This document shows, one piece after another, positions 5,184-42,808 of a stretch of 64,000 nt of DNA (position 1 is the stretch's first letter; every line of letters begins with the position of its first letter). The notes beneath the pieces were generated by a model, which worked only from the letters and a program-made list of their open reading frames with translations, had not been told where the DNA came from and ran no database searches. The translations under genes and the position numbers were made by a program. The stretch is taken from positions 1 to 64,000 of the forward strand of contig JAQVVR010000001.1 in the NCBI GenBank assembly GCA_028698875.1, in the 5' to 3' direction. This DNA comes from Candidatus Izemoplasmatales bacterium. Lineage in GTDB: Bacteria > Bacillota_I > Bacilli_A > Izemoplasmatales > Hujiaoplasmataceae.

Positions 5184-5935
5184 TGGATATTAAATATAAA
5201 AAAACTAATGGTTTGACTGATACCCCGCTATCATATTGCCCAGGATGTTCGCATGGAATCGTTCATAAACTGGTCGCTGAAACACTAGAAGAACTCGGAG
5301 TTTTAGGGGAGACAATTGCTATTGCAAGCGTTGGTTGTTCAGTATTTTCATACAAATTTTTTAACGTTGATGCGGTTCAAGCCGCCCATGGACGGGCTTG
5401 CGCAGTCGCAACTGGTGTGAAACGTAATCTTCCTGATCGAATTGTTTTTACCTATCAAGGTGATGGTGATTTAGCATCTATAGGAATTGCGGAAACAATT
5501 CATGCAGCTAACCGTAAAGAAAATATCACCGTAATCTTTATCAATAATTGTATTTATGGGATGACTGGTGGCCAAATGGCCCCAACTTCATTAATTGGTC
5601 AAAAAACCACGACCTCTCAGACGGGAAGAAAATCTGATGTCCATGGTAATCCAATCCACATCAGCGAAATGTTTTCACAAATTGAAGGCGTCGCTTATTT
5701 GGAACGTGTTTCTGTTTGTAATCCTCGTCAAGTACGTAATGCTAAGAAAGCTATCAAAAAAGCATTTACTTACCAAATGGAGAAAAAAGGTTTCACCATG
5801 ATTGAAGTTTTATCTAGTTGTCCAGTTAATTGGGGTATGACTCCCGTTGATGCATTAAAGTGGATTGAAGAAAAAATGACTCCCGTCTTCCCGCTCAAAG
5901 TTTTTAAAGATTTGGGGGATGAGAAAAATGTGTAA
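5183..5935 (+). CDS. 2-oxoacid:ferredoxin oxidoreductase beta subunit (TPP-binding)
   Basis: A 250-residue beta subunit that carries thiamine pyrophosphate. CPGCSHGIVHK near residue 20 is the usual N-terminal motif, HGRACAVATGVKR precedes the cofactor site, and GDGDLASIGIAET with NNCIYGMTGGQ is the GDG-to-N TPP motif. The large pyruvate enzyme is fused into one chain; this split form is typical of VOR/KOR. Start overlaps the alpha-subunit stop, and the end overlaps the gamma-subunit start by eight bases. Confidence 0.92.
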   Translation: MDIKYKKTNGLTDTPLSYCPGCSHGIVHKLVAETLEELGVLGETIAIASVGCSVFSYKFFNVDAVQAAHGRACAVATGVKRNLPDRIVFTYQGDGDLASIGIAETIHAANRKENITVIFINNCIYGMTGGQMAPTSLIGQKTTTSQTGRKSDVHGNPIHISEMFSQIEGVAYLERVSVCNPRQVRNAKKAIKKAFTYQMEKKGFTMIEVLSSCPVNWGMTPVDALKWIEEKMTPVFPLKVFKDLGDEKNV

Positions 5936-6482
5936 AGCAATCAACATAAGAGTCGCTGGTTTTGGTGGTCAAGGCGTCATGATGACAGGACAATTGATGG
6001 CTTACTGCGCAACTTATGAAAATATGTTTAGTCTTTGGGTTCCTTCATATGGACCAGAAACCAGAGGCGGAACAGCTAATTGTTCAGTCATCGTTTCTAC
6101 TAAAACAATTGCCTCCCCAGTTTTTATGAATGCCGATGTTTTAATTGCATTTAATTTACCATCACTCACAAAGTATATGAATATGGTCGTTGACACTGGT
6201 GTCATATTGTATAATTCATCAATGATTAAGGACCCAGTAATTAAACAAGGTATTAAAGCTTTCGGAATTCCCGTTAATGATATCGCTATCGGCTTGGGGA
6301 CGATTCAAGTAAGCAACATGGTAATGCTTGGTGCTTATATGGAATTTTCAGGTTTATTTAGTGATCAAACCGTCGAAAAAGTCTTGGAAAAGTTTTTGGG
6401 TGAAAAGAAAGCTCACTTGTTAGGAATTAACAAACAGGCAATTCAAGCTGGAAGAGAAGCGATGATTGCGGTAAAGGAGTGA
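5928..6482 (+). CDS. 2-oxoacid:ferredoxin oxidoreductase gamma subunit
   Basis: A 184-residue gamma subunit. RVAGFGGQGVMMTGQLM near the N-terminus is the family hallmark, and VPSYGPETRGGTANC follows. I prefer ATG 5928 over 5919 because the G-rich site at 5913-5918 then has workable spacing; 5919 would add three residues. It completes the four-subunit enzyme, and its end leads straight into ptb four bases later. Confidence 0.9.
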   Translation: MCKAINIRVAGFGGQGVMMTGQLMAYCATYENMFSLWVPSYGPETRGGTANCSVIVSTKTIASPVFMNADVLIAFNLPSLTKYMNMVVDTGVILYNSSMIKDPVIKQGIKAFGIPVNDIAIGLGTIQVSNMVMLGAYMEFSGLFSDQTVEKVLEKFLGEKKAHLLGINKQAIQAGREAMIAVKE

Positions 6483-19493: not shown

Positions 19494-21752
19494 ATGAAAT
19501 CCAAATTCGATATCATGGGAATGACATGTACTGCTTGTAGCGCTGCTGTTGAGCGAAATGTAAAAAAAGTTAAAGGCATTACTTCTGTCAATGTTTCTTT
19601 GCTGACAAACTCAATGAGCGTAGAATACGATGAAAATGTCATCACGCCAGATAAGATTATTAATGCTGTCAAAAATGGTGGATATGATGCTAAGGTATCT
19701 GGTATATCAAAAACATCTTTAGAACAAGCAAAAATAAGTAAGCAACGAATGGTAATTCGTTTGTTTGGATCATTAATATTGTTTTTGCTTTTGTTATATG
19801 TATCAATGGGTGCTATGATTGGTTTCCCAGTTCCGAAGTTTATGGATTCTCATCAACAACCAGTTATCTTTGGAATAATTCAAATGAGTATAACGATTGG
19901 TATTATTATATTAAATCGCAATTATTTTTTTGTAGGAATTCCTCAAATATGGAAACGTCACCCAAATATGGATTCTTTGATAGCGATCGGATCGGCTTCT
20001 GCTTTCATATATGGAGTCTATATTATCATCATGTTTGCCTTTTTCCCGGATTTGATGGCGGGGCGAATGATTGATAATGAGCTATATTTTGAAGCTGCTG
20101 GAGCCATCTTGACACTTGTTACTTTAGGGAAATATCTTGAGTTCAAAAGTAAGGCTAAAACTGGCGATGCTATTGCTCGTTTGATTGATTTGGCACCCAA
20201 AAATGCTATTGTTTTTCGTGATGGCAACGAAGTTGAAGTCAGTGTCGATTCAATACAGGTTGGAGAAACAGTAATTATCCGTCCCGGTATGAAAATACCT
20301 GTGGATGGGTTAATTACCGAAGGTTATTCTTCGCTTGATGAACAAGCTATTACTGGTGAATCAATGCCAGTAGATAAAAAACCTGGTGATAAAGTAACAA
20401 CCGCAACAATTAACACCTCAGGAAGTTTTCGTTTCCAAGCCACCGAAGTTGGGGAGGATACGACATTGGCGCGGATAATCGCCTTGGTACAAGAAGCGGG
20501 TAATTCGAAAGCGCCGATAGCAAAATTGGCCGATAAGATTAGCGGTATATTCGTCCCCATTGTTATTGGAATTGCGATTTTAACTTTTGTAGGATGGCTA
20601 ATCGGTGGTGCTCAGTTTGGATTTGCACTTTCAATGGCTATTACGGTTTTAGTAATATCATGCCCTTGTGCATTGGGATTGGCCACTCCAGTTGCCATAA
20701 TGGTCGCAACCGGAAAAGGAGCGGAAAACGGGATTTTAATAAAATCAGCGGAAAGTTTTGAAATAGCTCATGCAATCGATACAGTCGTATTGGATAAGAC
20801 TGGCACAATTACATATGGAAAACCAGAAGTCACTGATATGATAACTGTTGGTTCCATAACTCCAACTGATTTGTTGATCATTGCAGCATCAATCGAACAT
20901 AACTCAGAACATCCTATTGGCCAAGCAATTGTGAGATATGCGAAAAAAGCCCAAGTTCAAATCCATGAGGTAAATGATTTTTTTAATGAACCAGGGAAAG
21001 GCCTTAAAGGCAAAATTGATGGTCATATTTATTACGCTGGCAATGATATGATGATGATTGATTATAAAATCGATTTATCTGCCGGTCGTGATATCGCACA
21101 AAGCCTTGCCACAATGGGAAAAACACCAATCTATTTGGCTGATGAAAAACAACTTGTTGGTGTTTTTGGAGTATTTGATTCTATCAGACCAACAAGTTTA
21201 GAAGCGATTGATTGGTTTAAAAGTCACAAGATATCGGTAGTCATGGTAACGGGAGATCATGCCATTGTTGCCAATACTATCCGCAATCAATTAGGTATCG
21301 ATCAGGTCTATTCTGAAACCATGCCTGATAAAAAAGCATTGATTATTGCTAAATTACAAAATGACGGTCATCGTGTGGCAATGATTGGCGATGGAATTAA
21401 CGACGCAATTGCCTTAGTTAAAGCCGATGTTGGCATGGCAATCGGAGCCGGAACAGACATCGCTATCGAGTCGGCTGATATTATACTAATAAAAAATGAT
21501 TTACGTGACGCTGCTTTAGCAATTGAATTATCACGCAAAACTTTGGTAACAATCAAAATGAATTTGTTTTGGGCTTTTTTCTACAATGCAATCGGAATAC
21601 CGATTGCCGCGGGTGTGTTTTACACGTGGCTTGGATTGAAACTTGATCCCACAATCGGAAGTTTAGCTATGAGTCTTTCCAGCATCTCAGTTGTTTTAAA
21701 TGCCCTAAGATTAAAATTGTTTCATAAATCGAAAAGGAGGATAACATCGTGA
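19494..21752 (+). CDS. copA: Copper-exporting P1B-type ATPase CopA
   Basis: A 752-residue heavy-metal ATPase. One N-terminal HMA domain (GMTCTACSAAV, residues 8-18), then eight predicted membrane helices. SCPCALGLATP is the ion site, DKTGT the phosphorylated Asp, SEHPIG the HP signature, and GDGIND the hinge; after that it reads AIAL where most have APAL. YN and MSLSS in the last helices are the Cu(I)-specific residues. It pumps Cu(I) out of the cell. The start follows AGAGGGATAAT. copZ overlaps its end by four bases. Confidence 0.93.
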   Translation: MKSKFDIMGMTCTACSAAVERNVKKVKGITSVNVSLLTNSMSVEYDENVITPDKIINAVKNGGYDAKVSGISKTSLEQAKISKQRMVIRLFGSLILFLLLLYVSMGAMIGFPVPKFMDSHQQPVIFGIIQMSITIGIIILNRNYFFVGIPQIWKRHPNMDSLIAIGSASAFIYGVYIIIMFAFFPDLMAGRMIDNELYFEAAGAILTLVTLGKYLEFKSKAKTGDAIARLIDLAPKNAIVFRDGNEVEVSVDSIQVGETVIIRPGMKIPVDGLITEGYSSLDEQAITGESMPVDKKPGDKVTTATINTSGSFRFQATEVGEDTTLARIIALVQEAGNSKAPIAKLADKISGIFVPIVIGIAILTFVGWLIGGAQFGFALSMAITVLVISCPCALGLATPVAIMVATGKGAENGILIKSAESFEIAHAIDTVVLDKTGTITYGKPEVTDMITVGSITPTDLLIIAASIEHNSEHPIGQAIVRYAKKAQVQIHEVNDFFNEPGKGLKGKIDGHIYYAGNDMMMIDYKIDLSAGRDIAQSLATMGKTPIYLADEKQLVGVFGVFDSIRPTSLEAIDWFKSHKISVVMVTGDHAIVANTIRNQLGIDQVYSETMPDKKALIIAKLQNDGHRVAMIGDGINDAIALVKADVGMAIGAGTDIAIESADIILIKNDLRDAALAIELSRKTLVTIKMNLFWAFFYNAIGIPIAAGVFYTWLGLKLDPTIGSLAMSLSSISVVLNALRLKLFHKSKRRITS

Positions 21753-21964
21753 AAACAACGCTACAGATTGAAGGTATGAAATGTATGCATTGTCAAAAGC
21801 ATATAGAACAAGCACTTATATTAATAAATGGTGTAACAAAAGTCGAAGTAAACTATAAAACCAAATTTGCTCAAGTGGAATCAAAGGATGTAATTTCCGA
21901 TGCTGATTTTAAATCAGCTATCGAAGCAGCAGGATATCAAGTCACACATATTAGTGCCAAATGA
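21749..21964 (+). CDS. copZ: Copper chaperone CopZ
   Basis: A 71-residue HMA-fold protein with GMKCMHC near residue 9-15 as the Cu(I) site, delivering copper to CopA. The GTG start sits in a GTGA overlap with the copA stop, and AAAGGAGG is upstream inside copA, so coupled expression is expected. Its TGA overlaps the csoR start in the same way. Confidence 0.92.
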   Translation: MKTTLQIEGMKCMHCQKHIEQALILINGVTKVEVNYKTKFAQVESKDVISDADFKSAIEAAGYQVTHISAK

Positions 21965-22221
21965 TGAGAGCTGATCCGAAAACAGTAAAGAAACTATTAA
22001 ATACTGCACGTGGCCAAATTGATGGAATCGGTAATATGATTGAAGAGAACCGGTATTGTATTGACATATCTACTCAAATTTTAGCAGCTATTGCGGTGCT
22101 AAAAAAAGCTAATCAAGTGGTAATCCAAGCGCATCTAGAAAACTGTGTTCGAGAAACATTAAATGAAGAAGGACAACAAAAAATAACTGAGATAGTACAA
22201 ATTATAAATAAAATAACATAA
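21961..22221 (+). CDS. csoR: Copper-sensing repressor CsoR
   Basis: An 86-residue all-helical repressor of the CsoR/RcnR family. Cys33 (RYCIDI), His58 and Cys62 (HLENC) are the Cu(I)-binding C-H-C triad that separates CsoR from FrmR and RcnR. It starts in an ATGA overlap with copZ. It should bind the palindrome at the operon promoter and come off when copper binds, giving a self-regulated operon. Confidence 0.9.
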   Translation: MMRADPKTVKKLLNTARGQIDGIGNMIEENRYCIDISTQILAAIAVLKKANQVVIQAHLENCVRETLNEEGQQKITEIVQIINKIT

Positions 22222-22233
22222 TTGATCAATTAT

Positions 22234-22264
22234 AAAAAGTCTTCGTAAAGAACGAAGGCTTTTT
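22234..22264 (+). terminator. Terminator of the copper operon
   Basis: AAAAAGTCTTCGT (22234-22246) pairs with ACGAAGGCTTTTT (22252-22264) with one wobble; T tail. Confidence 0.85.
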
Positions 22265-22281
22265 ATATGTGTATAAGCAAT

Positions 22282-22309
22282 TTGATTGTAGATTATGATT
22301 GCATATGAT
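22282..22309 (+). promoter_or_regulatory. Promoter of the AraC-type gene
   Basis: TTGATT at 22282-22287, 16-base spacer, TATGAT at 22304-22309. This places transcription start after 22310 and supports the start at 22340. Confidence 0.5.
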
Positions 22310-22339
22310 AGAATTATTGAAATTATAAAGAGGCACATT

Positions 22340-22795
22340 ATGGAAAAAAAAGATGCGTATAAAAAAACAAATGATTTAAGTCTTAATAAAGCCAATCGGG
22401 TTTGTAGAACTAAAGAAAAAGCAGATGGACATCAGAAAAATTATGTCGAAAAGGCAGTCGATTATATACATAGGCATATAAATGAACCACTAAGCCTTGA
22501 GTTGATTGCAAAAAACACTTATATAAGTAGTTTTTATCTTTCGCATTTGTTTCATCAAGTAAAGAAAACGACAGTGGGTGAATATATTAACCGAAAACGA
22601 ATAGAGGTAGCTATAAAAATGATGAAAGATCATCGATTATTGGTTAAAGAAGTTGCAAAGCAAATTGGATATGCTGATGCGGGGTATTTTTCGAAAACAT
22701 TCATAAAATATTTGGGAATCAATCCCAAGCAATATATGCGTCAAATATACAAGGAACCAATTACAACACATTCACTAAGTGATAACCCATTGTAA
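22340..22795 (+). CDS. AraC-family DNA-binding protein without effector domain
   Basis: A 151-residue protein. Residues 40-145 are an AraC/XylS-type double helix-turn-helix: YVEKAVDYIHRHINEPLSLE, IAKNTYISSFYLSHLFHQVK, then EVAKQIGYADAGYFSKTFIK and GINPKQYMR. The N-terminal 35 residues are basic and have no cupin or other sensor domain. AAAGAGG is six bases before ATG 22340. It lies between the copper operon and the B12 unit; its target is unknown. Confidence 0.82.
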   Translation: MEKKDAYKKTNDLSLNKANRVCRTKEKADGHQKNYVEKAVDYIHRHINEPLSLELIAKNTYISSFYLSHLFHQVKKTTVGEYINRKRIEVAIKMMKDHRLLVKEVAKQIGYADAGYFSKTFIKYLGINPKQYMRQIYKEPITTHSLSDNPL

Positions 22796-22839: not shown

Positions 22840-22868
22840 TTGCAAAATGAAACCAATAGTGATAGAAT
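22840..22868 (+). promoter_or_regulatory. Promoter of the B12 riboswitch transcript
   Basis: TTGCAA at 22840-22845, 17 bases, TAGAAT at 22863-22868, upstream of the riboswitch. Confidence 0.55.
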
Positions 22869-22940
22869 TATTAATGGTTTCGTATTTAGTAAAACGAATA
22901 ACCACTCGGTTTTTAACCGATAAAACTTAATGCTGATATT

Positions 22941-23074
22941 ACAGGTGTATAACAGGGAATCCGGTTCAATTCCGGAACTGTGCCAGCAACCGTAAGGTCG
23001 ATGAAAGGCGTTTATCCATTGCGAAAGCGAGAAGGAGCCGAGTAAAACGAAGCCGAGTCGGGAGACCTACCTGT
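22941..23074 (+). ncRNA. Cobalamin riboswitch
   Basis: The core has the conserved segments of cobalamin riboswitches: ACAGGTGTATAACAGGGAAT, CCGGTT-CAA-TCCGGAACTG, TGCCAGCAACCGTAAGG, and the B12-box-like GCCGAGTCGGGAGACCTACC. ACAGGT (22941-22946) and ACCTGT (23069-23074) close the outer stem. There is no terminator before the gene. GACCT (23064-23068) could pair with AGGTC (23096-23100) next to the ribosome site AGGGAAGG, so control of translation is the likely mode. It should turn the two downstream genes off when cobalamin is plentiful. Confidence 0.88.
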
Positions 23075-23104
23075 ATGTCAAATATAAAAAAGGGAAGGTC
23101 CTTT

Positions 23105-23572
23105 ATGAAAAAAGTACTGGGTATCATGCTTTTCATGTTTTTATTTTTAGCTTTTTTTGGATGTAATCTCACCACTACAACACCAGTGGTGACAACGAAC
23201 GGTGTTCAAACCACCAGCGAAGAAGAACAAACTACAAGTCTTATTCTTGGACAAGTAACACTGCAGCTTTACGGATCAGATAATGCTTTAGTAAAATCCA
23301 TCACAGTTGATTTTGATGCACAAGATTCGTTACTCTCATTAATGATGGAAAACTACACTGTGTATTGCGATAACAATGGTAGTCTTGATGACACGTGCTC
23401 TGTTCCGGGAGCCTATGGATTGTATATCCGAGGAATTGATTCTGTTATCGGGGAAGATGCGAATAGAACATATATATCAATGTGGATAAATGACGTTTAC
23501 GCAATGACGGGGATCGCTGATACTGATCTTGTCAATGGCTATACATATGCGTTTAAACTCAGTTCATATTAA
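23105..23572 (+). CDS. DUF4430 lipoprotein, probable cobalamin-binding
   Basis: A 155-residue surface lipoprotein. Residues 1-21 are a signal peptide with FLAFFGC before the lipidated Cys. A Thr-rich linker (LTTTTPVVTTNGVQTT) leads into a DUF4430 domain: VTLQLYGSDN, ITVDFDAQDSLLSLMMENYTV, YGLYIRGIDSVIGE and YISMWINDVYA. DUF4430 is related to the C-terminal domain of transcobalamin/intrinsic factor. The cobalamin riboswitch directly upstream supports a B12-capture role. AGGGAAGG is six bases before ATG 23105; ATG 23075 lies inside the riboswitch end and is less likely. Confidence 0.82.
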   Translation: MKKVLGIMLFMFLFLAFFGCNLTTTTPVVTTNGVQTTSEEEQTTSLILGQVTLQLYGSDNALVKSITVDFDAQDSLLSLMMENYTVYCDNNGSLDDTCSVPGAYGLYIRGIDSVIGEDANRTYISMWINDVYAMTGIADTDLVNGYTYAFKLSSY

Positions 23573-23582
23573 TACACCGCAT

Positions 23583-24107
23583 ATGACAATAAGAAGCATC
23601 ACGGTTTCCGCGATGCTTCTTGCCGTTTTAATTGCGCAGGAATACGCTTTTATGGCTTTACCTAATGTGCAATTAACAGTAGTGCTAATCATGGTTTATG
23701 CAGCTGTCTTACCATGGGCAACACTGTTGCCACTAATTGCCATATATGTACTTATTGACAACCTAATTATGGGCTCACTTAGTATAATGTATTTTTGGCC
23801 GATGTTAGCGGCTTGGATGTTTTTGGCGGTAATTTCAAAGTTGCTTATGCAAAAGGATTTATGGGTACAAGTGGGTTTTGCATCACTTTTTGGATTTGTC
23901 TATGGATGGTTTTTTTGCGTTGTATATGTCATTCTTTTTGGGTGGGCGACTTTAGTTCCTTATTTAATAAGTGACTTGCCATTTGAAATCATCATGGCAG
24001 TAAATAACTTTGTCACGGTGTTAGTTATATATTTACCTATTAGGAAACTACTTGAAAAATTAATTAATCCGAAAACTAACTCATCAGATAATTTATATGA
24101 ACAATGA
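23583..24107 (+). CDS. ECF transporter S component, probably for cobalamin
   Basis: A 174-residue very hydrophobic protein with about six membrane helices. ITVSAMLLAVLIAQEYAF at the N-terminus has the small-residue pattern of substrate-specific (S) components of ECF vitamin transporters. It shares the cobalamin riboswitch transcript with the DUF4430 lipoprotein, hence the substrate call (CblT/CbrT-like role). No EcfA or EcfT gene is in the window, so it would use a shared energising module. The start is uncertain: no clear ribosome site; upstream starts overlap the lipoprotein gene. Confidence 0.72.
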   Translation: MTIRSITVSAMLLAVLIAQEYAFMALPNVQLTVVLIMVYAAVLPWATLLPLIAIYVLIDNLIMGSLSIMYFWPMLAAWMFLAVISKLLMQKDLWVQVGFASLFGFVYGWFFCVVYVILFGWATLVPYLISDLPFEIIMAVNNFVTVLVIYLPIRKLLEKLINPKTNSSDNLYEQ

Positions 24108-24141: not shown

Positions 24142-24175
24142 AAAAGCGATTCAGCCCCTGACTGAATCGCTTTTT
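24142..24175. terminator. Bidirectional terminator
   Basis: AAAAGCGATTCAG (24142-24154) pairs with CTGAATCGCTTTT (24162-24174), between the convergent S-component and clpB genes. Confidence 0.9.
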
Positions 24176-42274: not shown

Positions 42275-42808
42275 TTGAAATTATTACTTCATATTTGTTG
42301 TGCTCCATGTAGTGTGATGTGCATCAGTAAACTGCGTGAGGACGGCATAGATGTCACGGGATACTGGTACAATCCTAATATTCACCCTTTTACCGAATAT
42401 CAAAACCGATTAGCCGCATTAAAAGGATACAGTGAATTAATTAATTTACCAGTTATCTATAATGACTTTTATGGGTTGCGATTATTTGTAAAATTAATCG
42501 ATGGAAAAATGGATGATCGTTGCAAATCATGTTATGAAGAACGACTCACTGCAGTAGCTCTAGAAGCCAAAAAACTTGGCTATGACGCTTTTTCCACTAC
42601 TTTACTTATAAGTCCTTATCAGCAGCATGAAACGTTACGATTGGTTGCTGAACGGGTTGCGGCAAAAATAAAAATCCCCTTTTACTATGTCGATTTTCGC
42701 AATTATTTCCGTGAAGGTCAACAAATAGCAAGAAAATTACCATTATATATGCAAAAATACTGCGGTTGTATTTTTAGTGAAGAAGAAAGATATTTAGGTA
42801 AAAAATAA
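42275..42808 (+). CDS. queH: Epoxyqueuosine reductase QueH
   Basis: A 177-residue DUF208 enzyme for the last step of queuosine synthesis in tRNA, not dependent on cobalamin (unlike QueG). LLHICCAPCS carries the Cys-Cys pair, DDRCKSCYEERL and QKYCGCIFSEEER the other Cys that bind the Fe-S cluster and metal. It starts at TTG 42275, behind AAGGCGAT. It follows the Sel1 genes by 13 bases. No other queuosine gene is in the window. Confidence 0.92.
   Translation: MKLLLHICCAPCSVMCISKLREDGIDVTGYWYNPNIHPFTEYQNRLAALKGYSELINLPVIYNDFYGLRLFVKLIDGKMDDRCKSCYEERLTAVALEAKKLGYDAFSTTLLISPYQQHETLRLVAERVAAKIKIPFYYVDFRNYFREGQQIARKLPLYMQKYCGCIFSEEERYLGKK

Follow-up and report, generated by a model that had tools for sequence, protein, structure and literature searches.

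The cobalamin S component CbrT was reportedly predicted in a 2009 paper by Rodionov. In L. delbrueckii, the gene cluster has the order nrdJ-cbrS-cbrT-pduO, and the uptake of cobalamin as well as of cobinamide has been shown for the ECF-CbrT complex of this species (PDB 6FNP), with CbrT alone having a nanomolar affinity for cobalamin (PMC5997447). Because the construct and the assays were described without the CbrS lipoprotein (PMC5997447), CbrS is probably an accessory and not an obligate part of the transporter. In a proteomics study of Lacticaseibacillus rhamnosus, one protein carries the annotation 'additional lipoprotein component of putative cobalamin ECF transporter', and the paper also lists a DUF4430 protein that neighbours rtpR (PMC9963975).

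BtuCDF is also a cobalamin importer with an external binding protein, although its subunits are unrelated to the pair of proteins studied here. BtuH of Bacteroidetes is a surface B12-binding protein that aids a transporter, as we propose below for CbrS; it belongs to another bacterial group and, by its abstract, has a binding domain of another kind (PMC8941943). The isolated beta domain of human transcobalamin has been crystallised with cyanocobalamin and with cobinamide (PMC5599065), which indicates that this fold can bind corrinoids as an isolated domain.

Here, we analysed a window of 64,000 nucleotides (the whole stretch of DNA under study) from a Candidatus Izemoplasmatales bacterium. We consider it likely that cbrS and cbrT, the two genes of the locus described below, form an operon for the uptake of vitamin B12 under a cobalamin riboswitch, with capture by CbrS. 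A preliminary description of this DNA had proposed a compact B12 import system; the riboswitch, the CbrT homologue and an ECF module speak for it, but the arrangement is not new, since it is that of cbrS-cbrT. Importers of this kind are already known, and the operon adds a member. The role annotated in L. rhamnosus (PMC9963975) is the same as that predicted for CbrS of the window and is an annotation only; thus, the proposal is close to an existing annotation.

Like ECF-CbrT, the locus encodes an S component that is homologous to CbrT over its length, with a DUF4430 protein beside it at the place of cbrS, and it belongs with a group II shared ECF module. Unlike the L. delbrueckii cluster, the operon has a cobalamin riboswitch and lacks an adjacent nrdJ or pduO. 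The cbrS position was identified in a contig deposited as Faecalicatena absiana (L089), which carries a cluster of the L. delbrueckii type. There, a frame of 739 residues takes the place of nrdJ and is followed by a DUF4430 protein of 154 residues, by CbrT and by a frame resembling PduO, the first and last frames being assigned by position and by eye. This gene order shows a DUF4430 protein at the published position of cbrS and so provides the link to the CHARACTERISED system. CbrT of this contig is 98% identical to the 6FNP sequence, and the cluster is there by contamination or recent transfer. The lactobacillar CbrS in L089 lacks a lipobox cysteine, unlike the lipoprotein of the window. In a draft of the L. 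delbrueckii type strain (L090), the DUF4430 frame upstream of cbrT (5646-5984, + strand) looks broken and gave only a partial match.

Riboswitch and layout of the operon

The preliminary description had named a cobalamin riboswitch at this locus and proposed a scan with the Rfam model. The scan was positive over the full length of RF00174 (Table 1), for which the gathering score of the covariance model is 31.5 bits, and the identity of the riboswitch is practically certain. No second RF00174 match was found beyond it in the 1.42 Mb, 88% complete genome. The earlier coordinates and layout of the riboswitch and the genes were right. The cbrT start lies inside the end of cbrS, with an overlap of 26 nt. 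A promoter candidate precedes the aptamer but is weak: shuffled sequences gave an expectation of 6.0 such sites, and 11 were observed.

We infer that control is translational, because the start of the ribosome-binding site is 4 nt from the aptamer match and because no terminator-like site was found ahead of the lipoprotein ATG. Purine-rich sites occur at the matching position in the related leaders. In minimum-free-energy folding, the leader did not stand out (z = −0.45). A Shine-Dalgarno hairpin spotted by eye was dropped, as it is not conserved in relatives.

Table 1. Features of the cbrS-cbrT operon and of a larger related lipoprotein. Positions refer to the window unless a locus is named.
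Feature	Position	Strand	Basis and remarks
Sigma-70-like promoter candidate	22840-22868	+	Consensus scan, 9/12 matches; TTGCAA-17-TAGAAT, TG before −10
Cobalamin riboswitch aptamer	22926-23088	+	RF00174, 78.3 bits, E 1.3e-17, model 1-189 complete
Ribosome-binding site	23092-23098	+	Sequence GGGAAGG, 6 nt before ATG
cbrS-like lipoprotein gene	23105-23572	+	ATG 23105, 155 aa, DUF4430
cbrT-like ECF S component gene	23547-24107	+	ATG 23547, 186 aa, PDB 6FNP match
Intrinsic-terminator-like hairpin closing the operon	24142-24174	+	13 pairs, T-rich tail
Larger lipoprotein of the sister family	L037:4114-5448	+	Also in L033, L036, L044, L050 and others

Directly upstream of the riboswitch (window 19494-22795), there are genes for a heavy-metal P-type ATPase with an HMA domain, a metal-sensitive (CsoR-type) repressor and a small AraC-type regulator. 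In several relatives (L004, L006, L008, L009 and L029), ends of P-type ATPase genes are likewise found close to the operon.

The DUF4430 lipoprotein

The protein had been described as a lipoprotein with a Thr-rich stalk and a DUF4430 domain, and the sequence agrees with this. Its hydrophobic leader ends in FFG-C (Cys20), the stalk (residues 21-45) contains 48% Ser/Thr over 25 residues, and the DUF4430 or transcobalamin beta-like domain covers about residues 47-154. The score of the window protein itself against PF14478 (DUF4430) is 20.0 bits, which is under the cut-off of 23.8 bits. At the level of the family, PF14478 was matched by 37 of 43 members (E ≤ 0.01, best E = 2.9e-10). The members are widely diverged, being 15-46% identical to the window protein.

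We built an AlphaFold2 model of the lipoprotein from the alignment of 43 sequences (mean pLDDT 87) and compared it with the PDB. All 19 matches at E ≤ 0.001 were 3u7z, transcobalamin, haptocorrin or intrinsic factor, and the isolated human transcobalamin beta domain (5no0) was matched with a target-normalised TM of 0.78 (E = 1.3e-5). A broader DUF4430 profile compared with PDB sequences gave 3u7z (1.4e-15), haptocorrin (5e-4) and intrinsic factor (0.013). On the evidence of the model, the domain shares the beta-domain fold of transcobalamin, haptocorrin and intrinsic factor (5no0, 5np4, 4kki, 3kq4), and the sequence relation is weak but consistent. Thus, the earlier suggestion that DUF4430 is related to the C-terminal domain of transcobalamin holds both in fold and in profile. 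Unlike the transcobalamin family, the window protein is bacterial, is predicted to be lipid-anchored and, with 155 residues, has no helical alpha/alpha-barrel domain.

The best structural and profile match, 3u7z, is RUMGNA_00854 of Ruminococcus gnavus, which has the same DUF4430 domain and is titled a putative metal-binding protein. We know of no link between 3u7z and B12.

By analogy with the human domain, it is fairly probable that the lipoprotein binds a corrinoid. It could instead be a structural partner without cobalamin binding, for example as a docking element, which would either steady the S component while this faces outward or recruit a protein that carries a corrinoid. That ECF-CbrT is described as working without CbrS (PMC5997447) would fit such a role, as would the wide divergence of the bacterial domain and the fact that the DUF4430 Pfam family has no assigned function. 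However, besides 3u7z the nearest solved folds are all cobalamin carriers, and the isolated human beta domain does bind corrinoids (PMC5599065), so that we regard the purely structural role as unlikely, though it deserves to be weighed. Among the papers searched, we found no binding data for any bacterial DUF4430 protein, no report that connects such proteins with cobalamin riboswitches and no test of the function of the DUF4430 partner.

If the DUF4430 lipoproteins beside CbrT-like proteins bind cobalamin, ECF transporters would gain a binding protein on the outside, and bacteria would have relatives of the human B12 carriers. Such lipoproteins are found beside CbrT-like proteins in many genomes, and their cobalamin binding is a neglected question.

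Many short DUF4430 proteins of the order have two cysteines about 10 residues apart, which are absent from the lactobacillar CbrS. In the window lipoprotein, they are encoded at 23366-23368 and 23396-23401 (the region of residues 88 and 98). The pair could possibly form a disulfide or a metal site.

The S component and conservation of the pair

The second gene encodes a hydrophobic protein of 186 residues, for which no match was found in Pfam or NCBIfam. Using phmmer against all PDB chains, we found that residues 15-169 match 6FNP chain A, that is, CbrT (E = 4.4e-9), and no other chain. A family profile built from 42 relatives also matched 6FNP chain A (E = 4.3e-11), and no other PDB chain was matched by it at E ≤ 1. 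S components solved for other vitamins are also in the PDB; since these were not matched, the comparison is a fair test of specificity for the CbrT assignment. Judged by sequence, the protein, described earlier as six-helix and S-component-like, is a CbrT homologue, and its substrate is very probably a corrinoid.

The operon might mainly import not complete cobalamin but some other corrinoid, such as cobinamide or a different cobamide. CbrT of L. delbrueckii takes up cobinamide too (PMC5997447), and the human beta domain binds it (PMC5599065). Against this, CbiC was not found in the 88% complete genome, and the S component is distantly similar to CbrT, with its specificity not fixed by homology. 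We consider this reading improbable, and more so than the purely structural role of CbrS.

The conservation of the pair was explored in 61 related genomes, as the preliminary description had proposed. The S component is present in 50 of them, the window genome included, and the DUF4430 gene is directly upstream in all 50 loci. A cobalamin riboswitch was called in 47 of the 50, which are all the loci with uncut upstream sequence; the remaining three (L018, L039 and L056) are cut by contig ends. Orthologues beside other riboswitches had been named as evidence that would speak for another vitamin, and wherever the upstream sequence is uncut, the riboswitch is of the cobalamin class. In scans of genome contigs, the window S component as the query found no relative, and the CbrT sequence taken from the 6FNP alignment gave matches.

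We also ran the S-component profile over 392 genomes sampled from the phylum and found 85 carriers. The DUF4430 protein is adjacent in 35 of the 37 loci sampled outside the order, with the gene downstream in one (L106) and fused in another (L110). The fusion is a frame of 385 residues (L110:4494-5648, + strand), with DUF4430 at 38-149 and the S component at 207-368, and both a cobalamin riboswitch and another, longer DUF4430 protein precede it. The two loci without DUF4430 (L113 and L114) have low-scoring, distant S components, which probably have a different substrate.

A chance pairing of the riboswitch with the genes was rejected, because the arrangement is conserved. It is hardly credible that the S component transports some other vitamin and stands behind a cobalamin riboswitch by accident: Pfam and NCBIfam do not recognise it, but the family profile matches CbrT alone in the PDB, and the conservation over 50 of 50 related loci, in other families and in one fusion contradicts such a reading.

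Vitamin B12 in the genome and a proposed import route

An S component was expected to borrow an ECF module, and a shared EcfA-EcfA'-EcfT module was indeed found elsewhere in the genome: two ECF ATPases and EcfT lie between rpoA and truA on L116, where rpoA and truA were read by eye. A PduO adenosyltransferase is encoded on contig C18. The B12 users found are lysine 5,6-aminomutase, ornithine 4,5-aminomutase OraE with a GlmL-related partner, and a corrinoid protein encoded beside one of the URO-D type. MetH and NrdJ, like CbiC, were not found in the 88% complete genome.

The absence of BtuFCD noted earlier agrees with our search, within the limits of an incomplete assembly (88% complete): no BtuC was found. 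The single FecCD match was rejected as BtuC and is an ABC-3 permease (164.5 versus 31.4 bits). The QueH noted earlier in the window was located at 42275-42808.

We also compared the occurrence of CbrT and PduO over the 61 related genomes. Both are present in 45 genomes and neither in seven, with CbrT only in five and PduO only in four (Fisher's test, p = 4e-4, which is optimistic in view of the relatedness of the genomes and the incompleteness of many of them).

A likely corrinoid methyl-transfer cluster of this genome (L117:384-3319, − strand) comprises a PocR-domain AraC regulator together with a corrinoid protein and a URO-D-type protein. The genome meant here is that of the window.

The riboswitch, the membership in the CbrT family, the CbrS fold, the linkage of the genes, the ECF module and the B12 enzymes are established through homology, and on this basis we propose a cbrS-cbrT import route. 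When cobalamin is plentiful, the leader RNA would bind it and the operon would be off, probably through a hidden ribosome-binding site; when cobalamin is scarce, both CbrS and CbrT would be produced. CbrT in the membrane would bind cobalamin and import it with the EcfA-EcfA'-EcfT module, as in group II ECF transport. CbrS would be held outside by its lipid and the flexible Thr-rich stalk, where it most likely captures a corrinoid and then hands it over to CbrT or concentrates it there. For a direct hand-over from CbrS to CbrT, we see the chances as evenly balanced. The imported B12 would be adenosylated by PduO and would serve the lysine 5,6- and ornithine 4,5-aminomutases and the corrinoid methyl-transfer protein. 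The operon thus offers a predicted route of B12 import in an organism that has several B12-dependent enzymes and in which no BtuC or CbiC was found.

Between the riboswitch and cbrS, the operons of the sister family and of one genus within the window's own family encode an extra protein with one to three DUF4430 domains. The long-protein profile found no such larger lipoprotein in the window's own genome (88% complete assembly). The extra protein of the sister family is a lipoprotein, about 370-475 residues long, that combines one or two DUF4430 domains with a helical region (Table 1). This region has no consistent Pfam match; its profile gave six PDB matches at E ≤ 10, five of which are transcobalamins and haptocorrin, all five weak (E = 0.09-0.39). 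In a model of the whole protein (pLDDT 85), the beta domain was matched well, and the comparison with the intrinsic factor chain covered 313 columns (TM 0.36-0.41). The model is suggestive of a kind of bacterial transcobalamin with reversed domain order, which would work with CbrT. In the one genus of the window's family, the long proteins (L058:1999-3891 and L054:2116-4014) have three DUF4430 domains and belong to the same riboswitch operon.
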